Of a stretch of DNA of 64,000 bases, positions 31,566 through 40,302 are shown piece after piece (positions within the stretch are counted from its first letter, which is position 1; every line of letters starts with the position of its first letter). The notes below the pieces were generated by a model. That model was not told the DNA's origin. It worked only from the letters and a program-made list of their open reading frames with translations, and searched no databases. The stretch spans positions 232,448 to 296,447 of the forward strand of contig PAQY01000002.1 in NCBI GenBank assembly GCA_002709955.1, read 5' to 3'. The translations under genes were made by a program, and so were the position numbers. This stretch comes from Rhodospirillaceae bacterium (GTDB lineage: Bacteria; Pseudomonadota; Alphaproteobacteria; UBA8366; Aestuariispiraceae).

Positions 31566-32033
31566 ATGATCTTAGAAACCGTCTATGACCTGCCTGCAGG
31601 CGTCAGCCTTTTGGGCCTCGATCTGGGGGAAAAAACCATCGGGGTCGCCATTGGTGACCCGGCCGGCAGCATTGCGTCGCCCCTGGAAACCATCCGGCGT
31701 GCAAAGTTCACGCAGGATGTCGCGCGGCTGGGGGAAATCGTGGCGGATCGCCGGATTGGCGGCCTGGTCATCGGCCTGCCGGTCAATATGGATGGGACGG
31801 AAGGCAAGCGCTGTCAGTCATCGCGCCAATTCGCCCGCAATCTGATCTCTGTCGCCAAATGGGACATGCCCATCGCCTTCTGGGACGAACGCCTGTCAAC
31901 CAGTGCGGTGGAACGGGTGCTGATCGAACAAGCGGATATGACACGAGCGCGCCGCGGTCAGGTGGTCGATAAAATGGCAGCCAGCTTTATTCTGCAAGGC
32001 GCATTGGACGCACGGCGACTGCGCCCGCTATAG
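31566..32033 (+). CDS. ruvX: RuvX/YqgF-family putative pre-16S rRNA nuclease
   Basis: 155 aa, RNase H fold. LLGLDLGEKTIGVAIGDP carries the first catalytic Asp; LVIGLPVNMDGTEG and FWDERLSTSAVER are the second and third conserved strands, with a DKMAASFILQGAL ending. Known members process the 5' end of 16S rRNA and were earlier proposed as Holliday junction resolvases. ATG 31566 chosen; the long upstream frame is antisense to gatC. Divergent from gatC and overlapping the SDR gene at the stop codons (CTATAG). Confidence 0.92.
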   Translation: MILETVYDLPAGVSLLGLDLGEKTIGVAIGDPAGSIASPLETIRRAKFTQDVARLGEIVADRRIGGLVIGLPVNMDGTEGKRCQSSRQFARNLISVAKWDMPIAFWDERLSTSAVERVLIEQADMTRARRGQVVDKMAASFILQGALDARRLRPL

Positions 32034-32789
32034 CATGCTGGTATGGCCGTCCACGCTGATCGCCTGGCCGGAAATCCTTGCCCCTGCCTTGGAACACAGA
32101 AACAGCGCCATTTCGGAGATGTCTTCTGCGGTGACGAAACAGCGCATGCTGGTGTCCTTCACGTAATCGTCGCGGATCTGATCAACACTTTTACCGGTCG
32201 TTAAGGCCTCGTCCGCGATCACGCGGTCCATGCGGTCGCCTTCGACGGAGCCGGGACACAGGGCATTGACCCGCACACCGAATGGGCCAGCCTCTGCCGC
32301 GGCCGTTTTGGTCAGGCCGATAATTGCCCATTTCGCCGCACAATAGGGGCTGCGTTCCGGATAGCCATACAGGCCGCCTGTTGAGGAAAAATTGATGATA
32401 GAGCCGGAACCCTTTGCCTTCATCGGCCCCAATACGCGCCGAAGGCAATGATAGGCCCCGGTCAGGTTCACAGCGACACAGGCCGCCCAGGCTTCGGGAT
32501 CGGTATCCTCGATCACCCCGGTCGGTCCTTTTATCCCAGCGGCATTGATCAGAATATCCACGCCCCCTAAATGGGCCAAGGCAGCATCAAAGAACGCATC
32601 AACCTCCACACGGTTTGAAACGTCACAGCGCTGGTGCGCAATGCCATCGGGCAGGCTGGACAGGCCCTTGGTATCGACATCGCCTGCAAAGACCGCAGCC
32701 CCTTCACGATGCAACTGCTCCGCAATGGTCCGTGCGATGCCACCCCCCGCGGCGGTCACGATGGCGCGTTGTCCGGCGAATCTGCTCAT
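32028..32789 (-). CDS. SDR-family oxidoreductase
   Basis: 253 aa. Catalytic Tyr/Lys in YCAAK and NxAG in INAAGIKG are standard, and the C-terminal GQAISVDGHTSML is typical of the sugar/acyl dehydrogenase branch. The cofactor loop reads TAAGGGIA instead of TGxxxGxG, so the second and last Gly are changed; it is otherwise intact. ATG 32789 follows GAGG by 8 nt. Convergent with ruvX, with a 6-bp overlap. Substrate unknown. Confidence 0.87.
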   Translation of the reverse strand: MSRFAGQRAIVTAAGGGIARTIAEQLHREGAAVFAGDVDTKGLSSLPDGIAHQRCDVSNRVEVDAFFDAALAHLGGVDILINAAGIKGPTGVIEDTDPEAWAACVAVNLTGAYHCLRRVLGPMKAKGSGSIINFSSTGGLYGYPERSPYCAAKWAIIGLTKTAAAEAGPFGVRVNALCPGSVEGDRMDRVIADEALTTGKSVDQIRDDYVKDTSMRCFVTAEDISEMALFLCSKAGARISGQAISVDGHTSML

Positions 32790-32832
32790 TTTGCTTGCCT
32801 CATAGGGTGGCGACCAACACTGTTCGCGCACC

Positions 32833-33195
32833 ATGCTGGACACGGAACAAAGCGACAAGAATGAAGTGCAGGAAGGGCAGGGCGATGATCGTCTTTTCTG
32901 TGCGAAATGCCATGCCACAGTGACGCGGCAATGTTTCGCCATTGATCGGCGCGGCGCACATCAACACACGGTCTTCAATCCAGCAGGCCATGTCTTCACG
33001 GTACAGTGTTTTATTCATGCACCAGGCGCCGGAATGTTGGGCCGACCCAGCACGCAATTTTCCTGGTTTCCGGGACTCGCATGGCGGGTGGCGCTGTGTG
33101 TTGAATGCGGCACCCATATCGGGTGGGAATTCAGCGGCCCTGAAACATTCTTTGGCCTGATCAAACCCGCTTTGACGACCAGCCCAAACCCTTAA
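32833..33195 (+). CDS. Cereblon-like CULT-domain protein
   Basis: 120 aa, a single CULT domain, the thalidomide-binding fold of human cereblon; the best known bacterial member is MsCI4 of Magnetospirillum. Zinc ligands C23-x2-C26 (FCAKC) and C89-x2-C92 (LCVEC). The aromatic cage is W78 and W84 (SWFPGLAW) and W98 (IGWEF); the fourth position, Tyr in MsCI4, is F100. HTVFNPAGHVF and TFFGLIK are also conserved. Function in bacteria is unknown; uracil and other cyclic imides bind in vitro. ATG 32833 has no clear SD; GTG 32866 is an alternative. Convergent end overlaps the MoxR gene end by 4 bp. Confidence 0.88.
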   Translation: MLDTEQSDKNEVQEGQGDDRLFCAKCHATVTRQCFAIDRRGAHQHTVFNPAGHVFTVQCFIHAPGAGMLGRPSTQFSWFPGLAWRVALCVECGTHIGWEFSGPETFFGLIKPALTTSPNP

Positions 33196-34043
33196 CCCCT
33201 TGATCCTTCGCGGCGGGACAGGAAGGCCAGACGCTCAAACAGATGAACGTCCTGTTCATTCTTCAATAATGCGCCATGCAGCGGGGGGATGGCCTTGCTG
33301 GGATCTGTTTCACGCAATGTTTCGGGGGAGATATCTTCCACCATCAACAATTTGATCCAATCCAGTAATTCGGAGGTTGAGGGGCGCTTTTTCAGGCCTT
33401 GAACCTCGCGCACCTGGAAGAACAGGGCCAGGGCCTCACTCAACAGGCGCTTTTTGATGTCGGGGAAGTGAACCTGAACGATCTGTTCCATCGTCTCAGG
33501 GTCCGGGAAGCGGATGAAATGGAAGAAACAGCGCCGCAGGAAGGCATCGGGCAGTTCTTTTTCATTATTCGATGTGATGATCACGATGGGGCGCTTTTCC
33601 GCCCGGATCACTTCCTTCGTCTCATAGACATGGAATTCCATGCGATCCAGTTCCAGCAACAGATCATTGGGGAATTCGATATCGGCCTTGTCCACCTCGT
33701 CAATCAGCAAGACAGGCGCGGGGTCGGATGTAAAAGCCTCCCACAGTTTTCCCTTAATGATGTAATTGCGGATATCGTGGACCCGTTCGTCGCCCAACTG
33801 GCTGTCGCGCAGGCGGCTGACCGCATCATATTCATACAGGCCCTGCTGTGCCTTGGTGGTGGATTTCACATGCCATTCGATAAAGGGACGGTCCAGGGCG
33901 GTTGCGATTTCTCGCGCCAATTGGGTTTTACCCGTGCCAGGCTCCCCCTTGACCAGCAAGGGGCGTTGCAGCGTGACCGCTGCATTCACGGCAACGGCAA
34001 GATCTTCGGAGGCGACATAGCTGGACGTGCTGGTAAAACGCAT
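33192..34043 (-). CDS. MoxR-type AAA+ ATPase
   Basis: 283 aa. Walker A GEPGTGKTQ (about residues 34-42), Walker B VLLIDEVDKAD, sensor 1 ITSNNEKELPDAFLRRC, and the arginine finger region. The MoxR family helps assemble or activate partner proteins, usually with a VWA protein coded next door. Here the CoxE-like VWA gene is at 48593, about 14.5 kb away. ATG 34043 is preferred over the frame's first codon at 34064. Convergent with the CULT gene, ends overlapping by 4 bp. Confidence 0.9.
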   Translation of the reverse strand: MRFTSTSSYVASEDLAVAVNAAVTLQRPLLVKGEPGTGKTQLAREIATALDRPFIEWHVKSTTKAQQGLYEYDAVSRLRDSQLGDERVHDIRNYIIKGKLWEAFTSDPAPVLLIDEVDKADIEFPNDLLLELDRMEFHVYETKEVIRAEKRPIVIITSNNEKELPDAFLRRCFFHFIRFPDPETMEQIVQVHFPDIKKRLLSEALALFFQVREVQGLKKRPSTSELLDWIKLLMVEDISPETLRETDPSKAIPPLHGALLKNEQDVHLFERLAFLSRREGSRG

Positions 34044-34129
34044 TGACGATGATCCTGAAGGCAAGGGTTACGGATGGGCACAGACCCTAGTGTGCGCCCC
34101 TTGCGCAATCAAGACTCTCGCGCACCATT

Positions 34130-34747: not shown

Positions 34748-35503
34748 TTATGCAGGCTTCTTGAGTGCCGAGTGCTCTCTCAGGGGTTCGCTTTCCACAA
34801 TCAATTGGGTGCGGTCACTGGCATAATAGGACAGTCCGTATTCAATTGCGCGTCCATCCATGTCCACATTGATGCTTTCTGTCTGCAAGACCGGGCGTGT
34901 CGGTGGCTGCTGTAGGTGGGCTGCCAGTTGGCGCGTTGGCATGGTGGCGGTGATGCGTGTGGAAAACCTTTTGTAATCATGTACGCCACAGGCATCCAGG
35001 GCTGCGGTGATCGATAAAGTGTCACGAAAGGCTGCAATCATCCCCTCAAATCGCTTTGCGGGGAAATAATGGGTGGCAACACTGATTGGGCGACCGTCAA
35101 CTTCACTGACAGCTTCCAACAGCACGACGGGGGCACCTTTTCGCAGGTCTAGATTTCGCGCAATGACCGCATCGGCACGGACCTGTTCGGTCCGCAACAG
35201 GGTTTTGCTGGGCATGCGGTTGCCGCTGGTGATGTTTTGGGTAAAGCGGGTACGCTCCCCAATGGGATATTCGATCAGGTCGCTTTGAACAAATGTGCCG
35301 CGCCCTTGCTCAATTCGGACCTTGCCAACTTCCTGAAGGTGACTCATCGCGCGACGAACGGTGTGACGATTTACAGCAAAGCGACGGGACAGGTCCGCCT
35401 CTGTGGGAAGGCGGTCCCCAGGCTCATAGACACCCTGGTCTATTTCGGCCTCTAAAGTGCCGGCAATTTGTCGCCAGATTGGTTCTCCATCAGTTAGATA
35501 CAC
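34748..35503 (-). CDS. phnF: PhnF-type GntR/UTRA repressor of phosphonate genes
   Basis: 251 aa. N-terminal GntR winged helix (about 8-75: PTEADLSRRFAVNRHTVRRAM) and C-terminal UTRA ligand domain (about 95-245). Family members repress phn genes and sense phosphonate-pathway intermediates or phosphate. It is divergent from phnG across 192 bp that hold palindromic GTCTAGAC sites, the expected operators. Confidence 0.92.
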   Translation of the reverse strand: MYLTDGEPIWRQIAGTLEAEIDQGVYEPGDRLPTEADLSRRFAVNRHTVRRAMSHLQEVGKVRIEQGRGTFVQSDLIEYPIGERTRFTQNITSGNRMPSKTLLRTEQVRADAVIARNLDLRKGAPVVLLEAVSEVDGRPISVATHYFPAKRFEGMIAAFRDTLSITAALDACGVHDYKRFSTRITATMPTRQLAAHLQQPPTRPVLQTESINVDMDGRAIEYGLSYYASDRTQLIVESEPLREHSALKKPA

Positions 35504-35601
35504 GACTTGCCCCTTTGGTTATGCCATTCGTCACAAGAATTTCATCAACAACGCCATGCTTCGATCTTGCAATTGGGTCTAAGCTTAGGCATCTTATATT
35601 T

Positions 35602-35640
35602 GTCTAGACGTCTATACGAAAATCTAACGACTGTCTAGAC
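35602..35640. promoter_or_regulatory. Paired GTCTAGAC palindromes, candidate PhnF operators
   Basis: Perfect 8-bp palindromes GTCTAGAC lie at 35602-35609 and 35633-35640, with a near copy GTCTATAC at 35610-35617. The first and last centres are 31 bp apart, close to three helical turns, suited to cooperative binding on one face. They sit in the phnF-phnG divergent promoter region. Known PhnF operators are similar GTCTA-type inverted repeats in other bacteria. Confidence 0.65.
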
Positions 35641-35695
35641 CTTTGACTGGTTTGTTGAGTGTCGCAGCATCTTTGTCTGAACGGGAGATAATTTT

Positions 35696-36202
35696 GTGAG
35701 GAATGAAAGTTCCAGCCCAGATACAGGGAACAACCGGTCTTGGGAGGTGCCTTTGTCCGATGACCAGCGCGCCCGACAAGGCTGGATGGGCGTCTTGTCC
35801 ATGGCCCCTTCCGCCCGTCTATGCGACTTGTTCGATGCGCTACCAGAAAAGCCGGGTTTTGAGTTTCTGCGGAAACCGGAAAGCGGTTTGATCATGACCC
35901 AGGGCCGTGTCGGTGGCACGGGCGGCGCGTTCAATATGGGTGAGATGACCGTCACGCGCTGTAGTGTGAAACTGTCAGATGGAACTGTCGGCCATGCCTA
36001 TCAAGCGGGGCGTGACAAGAAAAAGGCGCGCTGCTGTGCGTTGTTGGACGCGATGCTGCAACAGCCGGAGCGTCAACGGGAAATCATGAATTCAATCATA
36101 GAGCCGCTAAAAGCGGAACAAGCGGCGCGAGACCTTGCGCGCGCAAAAAAGGTTGCAGCGACGAAGGTTGATTTTTTCACCCTTGTGCGGGGGGAGGATT
36201 AA
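35696..36202 (+). CDS. phnG: C-P lyase subunit PhnG
   Basis: 168 aa. Part of the PhnGHIJ core complex that transfers methylphosphonate to ATP ribose and cleaves the C-P bond. GRVGGTGGAFNMGEMTVTRCSV and GHAYQAGRDKKKA are the conserved PhnG blocks. GTG 35696 is 8 nt after GGGAG; a TTG at 35753 would give 149 aa, nearer E. coli length, so the N terminus is not certain. First gene of phnGHIJKLMN; 3 bp to phnH. Confidence 0.92.
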   Translation: MRNESSSPDTGNNRSWEVPLSDDQRARQGWMGVLSMAPSARLCDLFDALPEKPGFEFLRKPESGLIMTQGRVGGTGGAFNMGEMTVTRCSVKLSDGTVGHAYQAGRDKKKARCCALLDAMLQQPERQREIMNSIIEPLKAEQAARDLARAKKVAATKVDFFTLVRGED

Positions 36203-36205
36203 ACG

Positions 36206-36808
36206 ATGAGCCTTACCGATTTGGCCCCTGGTTTTGCAGACCCGGTTCGCGATGCTGCTGTCAGCTTTCGGACCATTCTGGATGCGATGGCTAGGCCTGG
36301 CGACGTGAAATCGCTGCCCGTTACGGCCCCGGTTCCGGCCCCTTTCAATGCAGCGGCGATATGCGTTGCCTTAAGCCTGCTGGATCCAGATACGCCCTAT
36401 TGGCTGGCCCCGGATTTGCGCAATGACCGCATCATTGGACATTTCAGCTTCCATACCGGGGCTCCCTTTGAAGCAGATATTCATAAGGCACAGTTTGCTT
36501 TTTTCCCGGTCGCGGATCTGGCGCGGGTCATGAAGGATTTATCGATTGGCACGGATGAATATCCGGACAGATCTGCGACAGCCATTGCTTTGGTGCCTGG
36601 CTTTGATTCCGCTGGTGGCGTTCGGTTGGCCGGGCCTGGTATTGAAACAACATGTGATTTTGCACCAGGTGGAATGACGACGGACGCCTGGAACGCGCTG
36701 GAGCGTAATGCGATGCTGTTCCCGTTGGGAGTGGATACCATTTTCGCGGGGCCAGACAGTCTTGCCGCGATTCCCCGCAGCACACGCCTGACCCAGTTGG
36801 AGGCATAG
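36206..36808 (+). CDS. phnH: C-P lyase subunit PhnH
   Basis: 200 aa. PhnH is a PLP-fold-like subunit without PLP, needed for carbon-phosphorus lyase assembly. FADPVRDAAVSFRTILDAMARPG at the start (in two parts) and LAGPGIE plus FPLGVDTIFAG near the end are the family blocks. Closely packed between phnG and phnI (3-4 bp). Confidence 0.94.
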   Translation: MSLTDLAPGFADPVRDAAVSFRTILDAMARPGDVKSLPVTAPVPAPFNAAAICVALSLLDPDTPYWLAPDLRNDRIIGHFSFHTGAPFEADIHKAQFAFFPVADLARVMKDLSIGTDEYPDRSATAIALVPGFDSAGGVRLAGPGIETTCDFAPGGMTTDAWNALERNAMLFPLGVDTIFAGPDSLAAIPRSTRLTQLEA

Positions 36809-36812
36809 ACCT

Positions 36813-37916
36813 ATGTATGTTGCTGTAAAAGGTGGTGAGCGCGCGATTGACAACGCCCATCGTTTGCTGGCCGAAGATCGACGTGGGAAGACGTCGACGC
36901 CGGACCTAACGGTTGATCAGATCCGCGAACAGATGAAGCTGGCTGTAGATCGTGTGATGACCGAAGGGTCCGTTTATGATCCGGACCTGGCCGCCCTGGC
37001 GCTGAAACAGGCGCGTGGAGATATGATCGAGGCAATCTTTCTGGTGCGTGCCTATCGAACAACATTGGCGCGGTTTGGGTCCAGTTTACCGGTAGAGACC
37101 GGTTCGATGAAGATTGATCGTCGTATTTCCGCCGCCTTCAAGGATGTGCCGGGGGGTCAAATTCTGGGTCCGACATTCGATTACACGCACCGGCTGATCG
37201 ACTTCAAACTGGCGGCAGATGGTGGCGATCCAGAGGAAGCGATTTCCATGGATGACGCAATGCCCCAGGCGCGGCATGTGCTGGACCTGCTGGCGGGGGA
37301 AGGGCTAGTGGAAACCCCAGAAGCATCCCAGGATCAGGCACCGCCTGGTGATATCACCCGCACCCCGGTTGAATTTCCGATGGACCGATCGACGCGCCTG
37401 CAAAGCCTGGCGCGGGGGGATGAGGGATTCCTGCTGGCGCTGGGCTATTCGACCCAGCGTGGCTATGCCCGAACCCATCCCTTTGCCGGTGAAATTCGGG
37501 TTGGCCGGGTTGCGGTGGAATTTCAGCCGGAAGAGCTGGGCTTTCCGATCCAGATCGGTGAAATGGAAATGACCGAATGCAACATGATCAATCAGTTCCA
37601 AGGATCCAAAACCGTTCCGCCCCAATTTACCCGTGGCTATGGAATTGCACTGGGACATGGGGAGCGCAAGGCAATGGCGATGGCGCTGGTAGACCGGTCA
37701 CTGCGGGCAGGGGAATTGGGAGAGGAACGCACAGCCCCGTCTCAGGATGAGGAATTCGTCCTGTCCCATTGCGACAATGTGCAGGCCACGGGCTTCGTGG
37801 AGCATTTGAAGCTGCCCCATTATGTGGATTTTCAGTCAGAGCTTAATCTGGTGCGAAAGATGCGCCGGCAGGTGGAAGACGGCATCGCCTTTGCTGGCAA
37901 GGAGGCTGCGGAATGA
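36813..37916 (+). CDS. phnI: C-P lyase subunit PhnI
   Basis: 367 aa. Catalyses displacement of adenine from ATP by the phosphonate in the core complex. MYVAVKGGERAIDNAHRLL is the conserved start; GYARTHPFAGEIRVG and MTECNMINQFQG with YGIALGHGERKAM are family blocks. ATGA overlap with phnJ. Confidence 0.96.
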   Translation: MYVAVKGGERAIDNAHRLLAEDRRGKTSTPDLTVDQIREQMKLAVDRVMTEGSVYDPDLAALALKQARGDMIEAIFLVRAYRTTLARFGSSLPVETGSMKIDRRISAAFKDVPGGQILGPTFDYTHRLIDFKLAADGGDPEEAISMDDAMPQARHVLDLLAGEGLVETPEASQDQAPPGDITRTPVEFPMDRSTRLQSLARGDEGFLLALGYSTQRGYARTHPFAGEIRVGRVAVEFQPEELGFPIQIGEMEMTECNMINQFQGSKTVPPQFTRGYGIALGHGERKAMAMALVDRSLRAGELGEERTAPSQDEEFVLSHCDNVQATGFVEHLKLPHYVDFQSELNLVRKMRRQVEDGIAFAGKEAAE

Positions 37917-38797
37917 GCACGGAAACACAAGACGACGGGCTGGAATACAATTTCGCCTATCTGGATGAACAGACCAAGCGGATGATCCGGCGTGCCTTGC
38001 TGAAGGCCGTTGCCGTGCCTGGGTATCAGGTTCCCTTTGCCGGGCGCGAAATGCCCATGCCCTATGGTTGGGGCACGGGCGGAATTCAGGTCACGGCCTC
38101 TATCCTGGAACCTGATGATGTTTTGAAGGTGATCGATCAGGGGGCTGATGACACGACCAATGCGGTTTCCATCCGCAAGTTCTTTCAGCGTGTCGCAGGG
38201 GTTGCGACGACGGAAAAGACTGAGGGCGCAACCCTGATTCAAACCCGTCACCGCATCCCCGAAATGCCCCTGCATGAAGGACAGATTCTGGTCTATCAGG
38301 TGCCAATCCCGGAGCCGTTGCGTTTTCTGGAACCGCGTGAGACCGAAACCCGGAAAATGCATGCGCTGGAAGAATATGGCCTGATGCATGTGAAATTGTA
38401 TGAGGATATTGCGCGCCATGGTCACATCGCCACCACCTATGCCTATCCGGTAAAGGTGAATGATCGCTATATCATGGACCCATCGCCAACGCCGAAATTT
38501 GATAATCCGAAAATGAACCGTTGTGCCGCCCTGCAATTGTTCGGGGCGGGTCGGGAAAAGCGGATATATGCCGTGCCACCCTATACCGATGTGGTCAGCC
38601 TGGACTTTGAGGATCACCCCTTTGAAATTCAGGCTTGGGACAATCCGTGCTCTTTATGCGGCGAAACCAACAGTTTTCTGGACGAGGTGATCATGGATGA
38701 TCAGGGCACGCGGATGTTCGTCTGTTCCGATACCGATCATTGTACGACACGTCAGCAGCAGGGCTATCAAGGCCCTGGGCAGGAGGCTGCGGAATGA
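37913..38797 (+). CDS. phnJ: C-P lyase catalytic subunit PhnJ
   Basis: 294 aa. Radical-SAM-type enzyme that breaks the C-P bond of the ribose 5-phosphonate intermediate. The four essential cysteines are C246, C249, C271 (iron-sulfur cluster) and C277 (active thiol), matching C241/C244/C266/C272 of E. coli at a constant offset of five. FAYLDEQTKRMIRRALLKA is the conserved start (split). ATGA overlaps with both phnI and phnK show translational coupling. Confidence 0.97.
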   Translation: MSTETQDDGLEYNFAYLDEQTKRMIRRALLKAVAVPGYQVPFAGREMPMPYGWGTGGIQVTASILEPDDVLKVIDQGADDTTNAVSIRKFFQRVAGVATTEKTEGATLIQTRHRIPEMPLHEGQILVYQVPIPEPLRFLEPRETETRKMHALEEYGLMHVKLYEDIARHGHIATTYAYPVKVNDRYIMDPSPTPKFDNPKMNRCAALQLFGAGREKRIYAVPPYTDVVSLDFEDHPFEIQAWDNPCSLCGETNSFLDEVIMDDQGTRMFVCSDTDHCTTRQQQGYQGPGQEAAE

Positions 38798-39585
38798 CTG
38801 AGACCGAAAACCTGCAAACACCGCTGCTGTCGGTCCAATCTGTTACCAAAACATATGGGCCGCATCTGGGGTGTTCCGACATCAGCTTTGACCTGTATCC
38901 TGGGGAAGTGGTCGGTATTGTTGGAGAGTCCGGGTCGGGCAAGACAACGCTTTTGAACTGTTTGGCCGGTCGGTTGACGCCAGATGCAGGGAAGGTTCTT
39001 TACACGGACCGCCTGGGTTCTGCATTGAATGTGCATACCGTGTCAGAGCCTCAGCGCCGTATGCTGATGCGCACCGATTGGGCCTTTGTGCATCAACATG
39101 CGCGGGATGGATTGCGTATGACCGTCAGCGCGGGCGGCAATGTCGGCGAACGCCTGATGGCAGGCGGCGCGCGCCACTATGGCAATATTCGCGAACAGGC
39201 GCTGGATTGGCTGGAAAAGACAGAAGTGGATGTCAGCCGCATCGATGACCGCCCGGATACATTCTCCGGCGGGATGCAGCAACGATTGCAGATCGCGCGA
39301 AATCTGGTGACCGGTCCGCGTCTGGTCTTCATGGATGAGCCAACAGGGGGGCTGGATGTGTCTGTCCAGGCCCGGCTGCTGGATCTGTTGCGGGGGCTGG
39401 TGTCTGAAATGGGCCTCAGCGCGATCATAGTTACCCATGATCTGGCCGTCGCGCGGTTGTTGTCGCATCGGCTGGTGGTGATGCGGCGCGGACAGATTGT
39501 TGAAACCGGCCTGACCGATCAGGTGCTGGATGATCCGCAAGATGCCTATACCCAATTACTCGTATCCTCCGTCCTGCATCCATGA
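38794..39585 (+). CDS. phnK: PhnK ABC-type ATPase of the C-P lyase system
   Basis: 263 aa. Walker A GESGSGKTT, signature TFSGGMQQRLQIARNL and Walker B LVFMDEPTGGLDV are intact. PhnK docks on PhnJ of the core complex rather than on a membrane permease. ATG 38794 overlaps phnJ's stop (ATGA); an in-frame codon earlier at 38740 lies within phnJ and is not supported. Confidence 0.95.
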   Translation: MTETENLQTPLLSVQSVTKTYGPHLGCSDISFDLYPGEVVGIVGESGSGKTTLLNCLAGRLTPDAGKVLYTDRLGSALNVHTVSEPQRRMLMRTDWAFVHQHARDGLRMTVSAGGNVGERLMAGGARHYGNIREQALDWLEKTEVDVSRIDDRPDTFSGGMQQRLQIARNLVTGPRLVFMDEPTGGLDVSVQARLLDLLRGLVSEMGLSAIIVTHDLAVARLLSHRLVVMRRGQIVETGLTDQVLDDPQDAYTQLLVSSVLHP

Positions 39586-39603
39586 GACGGGGAGGGAGCT
39601 TTT

Positions 39604-40302
39604 ATGACTGAGTTACTGCGCCTGAAAGACGTTGAAAAATCCTTCACCCTGCACAACCAGGATGGGATCACATTGCCGGTCTTCAAGGGTTTGACCATGC
39701 AGGCCCATGCCGGGGAATGTGTTGCCCTGGCGGGGCCATCGGGCATGGGAAAATCCACACTGATGCGCATGATCTATGGCAATTATCTGTGCCAGGGCGG
39801 CCAGGTAGAGGTGCTGCATAAGGGGGACTGGGTCGATATCGCAAAAGCCAATGCACGCGACATCTTGCAGGTGCGGCGCTGGACATTGGGCTATATCAGT
39901 CAGTTTCTGCGGGTCGTCCCCCGGGTGTCGACCCTGAATGTCGTGGCTGAACCCTTGATTATGCGCGGCGTTGATGGGGGAACAGCGCGGGATCAGGCCG
40001 CCGCGATGCTGACAAAGGTGAATTTGCCGGAGTCCTTGTGGCACCTTGCCCCCGCGACATTTTCCGGTGGGGAACAACAGCGTGTGAATATTGCACGGGG
40101 ATTTGTTGCGGATTATCCGGTAATGCTGCTGGATGAGCCAACCGCATCGCTGGATCAGACCAATCGCGAGGCGGTGCTAGATTTGATCAGAACCTCAAAA
40201 GCGGCGGGACGGGCTTTGGTTGGTATCTTTCACGATGCCGATACGCGGGCGGCGGTTTGTGACCGGGAATTCTCCATTGGGGATTTCAAGGTTTCCGCCT
40301 GA
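39604..40302 (+). CDS. phnL: PhnL ABC-type ATPase of the C-P lyase system
   Basis: 232 aa. Walker A GPSGMGKST, signature FSGGEQQRVNIARGF, Walker B VMLLDEPTASLDQ. Forms a second dimeric ATPase layer on the C-P lyase core with PhnK. It has a good SD GGGAGG before ATG 39604. 10 bp to phnM. Confidence 0.95.
   Translation: MTELLRLKDVEKSFTLHNQDGITLPVFKGLTMQAHAGECVALAGPSGMGKSTLMRMIYGNYLCQGGQVEVLHKGDWVDIAKANARDILQVRRWTLGYISQFLRVVPRVSTLNVVAEPLIMRGVDGGTARDQAAAMLTKVNLPESLWHLAPATFSGGEQQRVNIARGFVADYPVMLLDEPTASLDQTNREAVLDLIRTSKAAGRALVGIFHDADTRAAVCDREFSIGDFKVSA

Follow-up and report, generated by a model that had tools for sequence, protein, structure and literature searches.

We find that a 64,000-nucleotide stretch of DNA from a Rhodospirillaceae bacterium (the window) almost certainly encodes, as judged from its sequence, a protein of the CULT family, the family of the thalidomide-binding domain of cereblon. 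The protein itself is an ordinary new member of a family that was already known in bacteria, having been described in 2015. What is new here is that a gene for a short-chain dehydrogenase/reductase (SDR) is kept paired with the CULT gene throughout the genus, a useful fact that offers a handle on the job of the CULT protein. The ligand for which the thalidomide pocket of cereblon evolved is a long-standing question, and bacterial single-domain CULT proteins are its simplest test case. The features of the locus are collected in Table 1; G- and L-numbers in the text denote genomes and loci.

Table 1 Features of the CULT locus, in positions of the window
Feature	Position	Strand	Basis or remark
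CULT (cereblon thalidomide-binding-domain) protein, 120 aa	32833..33195	+	ATG start, TAA stop; homology and codon bias
N-terminal tail, residues 1-22, before the first zinc cysteine; acidic (7 D/E, 2 K/R)	32833..32898	+	Alignment
First zinc CxxC, C23 and C26; invariant 28/28	32899..32910	+	Alignment
FNPAG, residues 48-52; N, P and G invariant 28/28	32974..32988	+	Alignment
Cage Trp 78 to Trp 84; both invariant 28/28	33064..33084	+	Alignment
Second zinc CxxC, C89 and C92; invariant 28/28	33097..33108	+	Alignment
Cage Trp 98 (28/28) and fourth cage place, Phe 100 (F 19, Y 9 of 28)	33124..33132	+	Alignment
Short-chain dehydrogenase/reductase (SDR), 253 aa; divergent partner of CULT	32028..32789	-	Best NCBIfam families FabG and 3-hydroxybutyrate dehydrogenase, below cut-off
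Spacer between the divergent CULT and SDR start codons, 43 bp	32790..32832	.	37-44 bp in six genus genomes
AAA+ ATPase (MoxR-like by eye), convergent; stop codon overlaps the CULT stop	33192..34064	-	Context only

The CULT reading frame was found exactly as the first-pass annotation had described it, and its identification there as a single-domain bacterial CULT protein is borne out by matches to MsCI4 and cereblon and by intact zinc and cage residues. In a phmmer search of PDB sequences, the 120-aa product matched MsCI4 (MGR_0879, Magnetospirillum gryphiswaldense cereblon isoform 4; PDB 4v2y, with 47 PDB entries of that sequence) over residues 16-118 at E = 4.7e-30, with 47 of 96 aligned residues identical (49%), and chains named 'Protein cereblon' at E = 2.8e-17 to 2.9e-14. 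The family profile gave E = 6.4e-39 for MsCI4 and 1.8e-22 to 2.3e-19 for the cereblon chains. The gene is the single match in a genome that is 99.6% complete. MsCI4 and the window protein have in common a single CULT domain, two CxxC motifs, three cage tryptophans and the FNPAG, FSWF and HxGW motifs; they differ in that the window protein has Phe where MsCI4 has Tyr at the fourth cage place, in its acidic tail, and in the SDR pairing of its genus. The thalidomide-binding domain of cereblon is the matching domain there and has the same cage, including the Phe (PMC8900816). However, unlike cereblon, the window protein is only 120 aa long, without LON domain, DDB1-binding region or ubiquitin ligase context; the Pfam scan of the ORF gave no LON family, which speaks against a full cereblon-type E3 receptor.

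The Pfam scan also raises the question of whether another beta-tent protein (yippee, Mis18 or MsrB) has been miscalled CULT. The best family for the 120-aa product was Yippee-Mis18 (PF03226, E = 0.003), which has a related beta-tent fold (PMC4287342), and 22 of the 28 aligned rows reach this family at E ≤ 0.01 (best 2.3e-6); MsrB is likewise described as a fold relative of CULT (PMC4287342). However, the score of 18.1 bits lies below the Pfam cut-off of 26.6, the E values are 1e-28 to 1e-30 for MsCI4 chains and 3e-17 to 3e-14 for cereblon, the protein carries the CULT-type cage residues that set it apart from Yippee and Mis18, and MsrB families were absent from the Pfam and NCBIfam lists up to E = 1. 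A miscall is thus next to impossible. No NCBIfam model passed its cut-off with the 120-aa product.

The antisense frame of the gene is also stop-free, with a 105-aa antisense ORF at 32800-33117, so openness alone is no proof of coding, and it is homology and codon bias that decide for the plus strand. Comparison of the window with its orthologue in G002 (90% identical) gave 58 base differences, 44 of them on codon position 3 of the plus frame, with dN of 0.050 and dS of 0.985 (dN/dS ~0.05), and this third-position bias and low dN mark the plus frame as the selected one. Against the CULT gene of G004 (98% identical), dN was 0.007 and dS 0.227. The CULT gene is under purifying selection. The ATG start is consistent with the other alphaproteobacterial rows, which also begin with 'ML', and the corresponding start in G001 is a GTG preceded by AAAGGAG. 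No clear ribosome site was seen by eye before the window ATG, and no sigma-70-type promoter site was found in 32500-33400, where 0.3 would be expected.

The zinc and cage residues that the first-pass annotation had named (C23, C26, C89, C92, W78, W84, W98 and the Phe at position 100) are correct, and its seven cysteines and tryptophans are identical in all 28 aligned homologues. The full set of invariant columns adds N49, P50, G52, F79, G97, F106 and L109; as to FNPAG, a hairpin-tip motif is mentioned in PMC4287342. In 8/8 alphaproteobacterial rows the 22 residues before the first zinc cysteine include 6-10 that are acidic and 1-4 that are basic, and the 'ML' start and net acidity are found in all eight; among the rows from the one other, CULT-rich order, several are acidic and others are not. 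The AlphaFold prediction for the window protein had a mean pLDDT of 48.2 with three sequences (window, L002 and L003) and of 44.8 with the window alone.

The first-pass annotation had put its emphasis on a Tyr-to-Phe change in the cage, and here the comparison points the other way. At position 100, which corresponds to Y101 of MsCI4, Phe is the commoner state (19 of 28 rows, the other nine having Tyr), it switches within the genus (Phe in G000, G002 and G004, Tyr in G001, G003 and G005), and it equals the human state. It is the Phe-to-Tyr change at this place that has been described as a substitution in some organisms, MsCI4 included, where the Tyr hydroxyl gives one extra hydrogen bond that is absent in the human protein (PMC8900816). 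According to the same source, work with MsCI4 Y101F indicates that the extra bond boosts affinity and leaves the binding modes unaltered, and the mutant cage is chemically identical to the human one; chain 4v32, presumably this mutant, also has Phe at the fourth cage place. To judge by its residues, the window protein is a natural protein with a human-type cage, the common state in our sample, and the locus adds a natural case in which all four cage positions are as in human cereblon.

We hypothesize that this small, presumably cytosolic, zinc-pinned domain acts as a receptor; it carries an acidic tail, and no catalytic machinery was recognised in it. MsCI4 is reported to bind thalidomide, uridine and deoxyuridine in its cage, and a third of its domain to fold upon binding only (PMC4449219; PMC4287342). 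By analogy, the three cage tryptophans of the window protein would enclose a planar ring of the cyclic-imide or uracil type, and only this binding would let about one third of the domain fold, which would make the protein a ligand-gated receptor. Because the cage residues are intact we expect the same ring specificity here, and on this analogy the protein very probably binds imide or uracil rings; that it is a non-enzymatic receptor is also probable, if somewhat less so. As natural ligand we favour the cyclic imide, an aspartimide or a glutarimide, at the C terminus of proteins that have been damaged or cleaved; with its cage occupied, the domain would keep hold of these chains and perhaps pass them on to a protease. 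C-terminal cyclic imides have been described as degrons read by cereblon (PMC12117711, PMC13001092), and we rank them first as the cellular ligand whose binding by a CULT domain has been shown to have a consequence. We put this forward tentatively: cyclic-imide protein ends as the main ligand have less than an even chance of being correct, and the whole chain, from receptor for such ends to hand-over, is a conjecture of about the same standing. As to the natural ligand, the hand-over and any role of the tail or the SDR, we give only what we infer. The first-pass annotation had called the cell role of these proteins unknown, and indeed no function for a bacterial CULT protein was found in titles and abstract openings among the matches listed.

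Some of the genomic evidence bears on this proposal. The patchy presence of CULT and the lack of a common neighbour fit a stand-alone receptor. Against the proposal, no protease or chaperone was seen as a recurring CULT neighbour in the part of the neighbours scanned by family. Isoaspartyl methyltransferase has been reported to generate cyclic-imide ends in humans (PMC13001092); its family (PF01135) is present in 52/52 genomes, the window genome included, and in all 14 controls, and therefore does not single out CULT carriers, so we set this co-occurrence aside as uninformative.

The SDR gene stands back to back with CULT in 6/6 genomes of the genus, the start codons being 37-44 bp apart. SDRs at least 74% identical were found only in these six CULT-bearing genomes among the 14 of the family; the next best were at most 54% identical, and no CULT gene lay near these within the stretches fetched (G007, G008, G009 and G012). 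The SDR of G002 is truncated where its contig stops and was left out of the SDR tree, in which the other five paired SDRs, all full-length, group together (support 98/97). Beyond the pair the flanks change. In G000, G002 and G004, CULT is followed by the AAA+ ATPase and then by phn-like genes. No such ATPase was found in the fetched CULT stretches of G001, G003 and G005; on the far side of CULT, G001 has a Dpp-type peptide ABC transporter (Pfam and NCBIfam; DppA-type 808.8 bits, cut-off 1005), and G003 and G005 have a related transporter whose binding protein is 26% and whose ATPase is 37-50% identical to those of G001. In the window, positions 34748-40302 hold a phosphonate C-P lyase-like run (a GntR-type regulator, then phnG, H, I, J, K and L), named by eye from the ORF list.

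The pairing suggests another way of reading the CULT protein, as one that senses, carries or buffers a metabolite of the pyrimidine or imide/lactam type, with the SDR acting on the same compound or on a breakdown product, the two making up a tiny metabolic module. The pair persists in all six genus genomes at nearly constant spacing despite the changing outer flanks, the close SDRs keep to the CULT-bearing genomes of the family, and enzyme partners recur, since a rhodanese gene lies downstream of CULT at 6/20 loci of the other order. Enzymes as recurring close partners point more towards a small-molecule role. Furthermore, MsCI4 binds uridine (PMC4449219), and uridine is a better directly supported ligand for a bacterial CULT domain than protein ends are. 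However, the SDR pairing is confined to the genus of the window: no similar SDR (tblastn E ≤ 1e-6) was found at the other 22 CULT loci (L036, L038-L057 and L077, some of them on short contigs). Since the six genus genomes go back to a single ancestor, the pairing could have arisen just once. The 54% identical SDRs of G007 and G012 may be orthologues without CULT, in which case the SDR may not need it, and the SDR passed no cut-off in the best 25 of its 191 matching NCBIfam families. We place a metabolite shared with the SDR a close second, given that the genes fixed beside CULT encode enzymes, and the gap between it and cyclic-imide protein ends is small; as a reading in its own right it, too, has less than an even chance of being correct. 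A combined form, in which CULT and SDR in the genus would be a two-gene imide/pyrimidine module (with a rhodanese partner in part of the other order), CULT capturing a cyclic-imide or uracil-type compound or protein end and the enzyme acting in the same pathway, is distinctly unlikely.

The presence of the gene in 6/6 genus genomes with one fixed partner makes gene removal and ligand hunting concrete. If true, a CULT-SDR module would indicate what the thalidomide pocket bound ancestrally, and it would be, to our knowledge, the first known physiological context for a bacterial cereblon relative.

The distribution of CULT is uneven. In the family of the window it is present in 6/14 genomes, which are all six of the genus and none of the eight others, and in the order in 7/43. 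In the class it was found in 3/385 sampled genomes, two of them from the genus, single-sequence and profile searches agreeing (in the rows listed for the profile search, no genome had more than 11 candidates scored). The phylum sample gave 22/398 genomes, read as the window's own genome, 20 genomes that all belong to the one other order (the order of G091, loci L038-L057), and one spurious match (G426). Within that order, CULT was found by profile in 20/48 genomes. The first-pass statement that such proteins are few therefore stands for the class, but not for the other order or the genus itself. These counts cover the phylum of the window, plus one close-relative pattern scan of genome contigs; bacterial CULT proteins have been described as chiefly deltaproteobacterial (PMC4287342). 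The relatives L002 (98%) and L003 (90%) come from metagenome assemblies labelled Rhodospirillales and Alphaproteobacteria. Two candidates were left out before counting: L004, whose match is antisense in an 852-aa ORF that is aconitase-like by eye, and G426 (L031/L058), with E = 2.9e-4 over 57 residues and one stop, where the three plus frames of positions 1401-1800 hold no zinc-cysteine and cage pattern.

The patchy presence (3/385 in the class) could also mean that CULT is a functionless gene, either decaying or carried along as a selfish passenger. CULT does diverge faster than its partner, being 46-48% identical between the window and G001, G003 and G005 where the SDR is 74-77% identical, and the genus proteins fall into three deep branches (G000/G002/G004; G001; G003/G005) that are 44-48% identical to each other. 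In the CULT tree (29 rows, the 28 and the MsCI4 stretch) the six genus proteins cluster together at a support of 91/89, which is not decisive. However, the dN/dS of the gene already largely refutes a passenger, the zinc and cage residues are invariant in every row, and all six genus genomes have kept the gene. Nor was there a CULT match in the plasmid and phage collections searched, and of the viral contigs 17 stretches fit a pattern but none encodes a CULT relative; we rejected a plasmid or phage origin on these searches. A functionless passenger is thus very improbable.

The first-pass annotation had also called for a comparison of neighbours across genomes, and this yielded the SDR pair, fixed in the genus, but no neighbour common to all loci among the neighbours listed. 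The rhodanese gene of the other order immediately follows CULT, in the same orientation, at six loci from three families (L044, L045, L048, L049, L050 and L057), and the genes are 72-91% identical to that of L045; Pfam confirms a rhodanese in L045 (9299-9748), L049 (3005-3430) and L057 (3649-4074). No rhodanese gene was seen at the window locus. Within ~5 kb upstream of CULT, VWA or VWA-TPR genes are present at 4/20 loci of this order (L040, L047, L051 and L053), recognised by similarity at all four and by Pfam for L040, L047 and one L053 gene. These genes, together with the ATPase that converges on the window CULT with overlapping stop codons, would be consistent with CULT as the recognition subunit of an AAA+/VWA-type protein-maintenance system. 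However, no VWA partner was recognised beside the window ATPase (ORF list, by eye), the ATPase is near only 3/28 and VWA near 4/28 CULT loci (by similarity to single queries), and the combination was chosen after many neighbours had been viewed and so could easily be chance; we consider this role improbable. Catabolism of hydantoins or cyclic imides beside CULT, suggested by a 688-aa neighbour at L034, was rejected, as Pfam gives CoA-ligase-type domains. At L036 (7607-8914; G037), the gene converging on CULT has a C-terminal MsrA domain and a long N-terminal part.

A link to magnetosomes was considered as an explanation of CULT and dropped. The other order bears magnetosome-type genes: PF18509, the magnetochrome domain (database name MCR), was above cut-off in all 36 genomes tested of the 48 of the other order, 20 with CULT and 16 without, and in 0/14 control genomes and 0/6 of the window's genus; weak matches below cut-off were seen in G011 and G013, CULT-less members of the window's family. 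Its absence from the genus argued against the link, as did the fact that, among the matches listed, no CULT-bearing genome of the other order had it on the CULT contig, these assemblies being in pieces. In the literature collection searched, no paper combined 'cereblon' and 'magnetotactic'. The CULT-rich other order is, we would guess, Magnetococcales, and MsCI4 likewise comes from Magnetospirillum.
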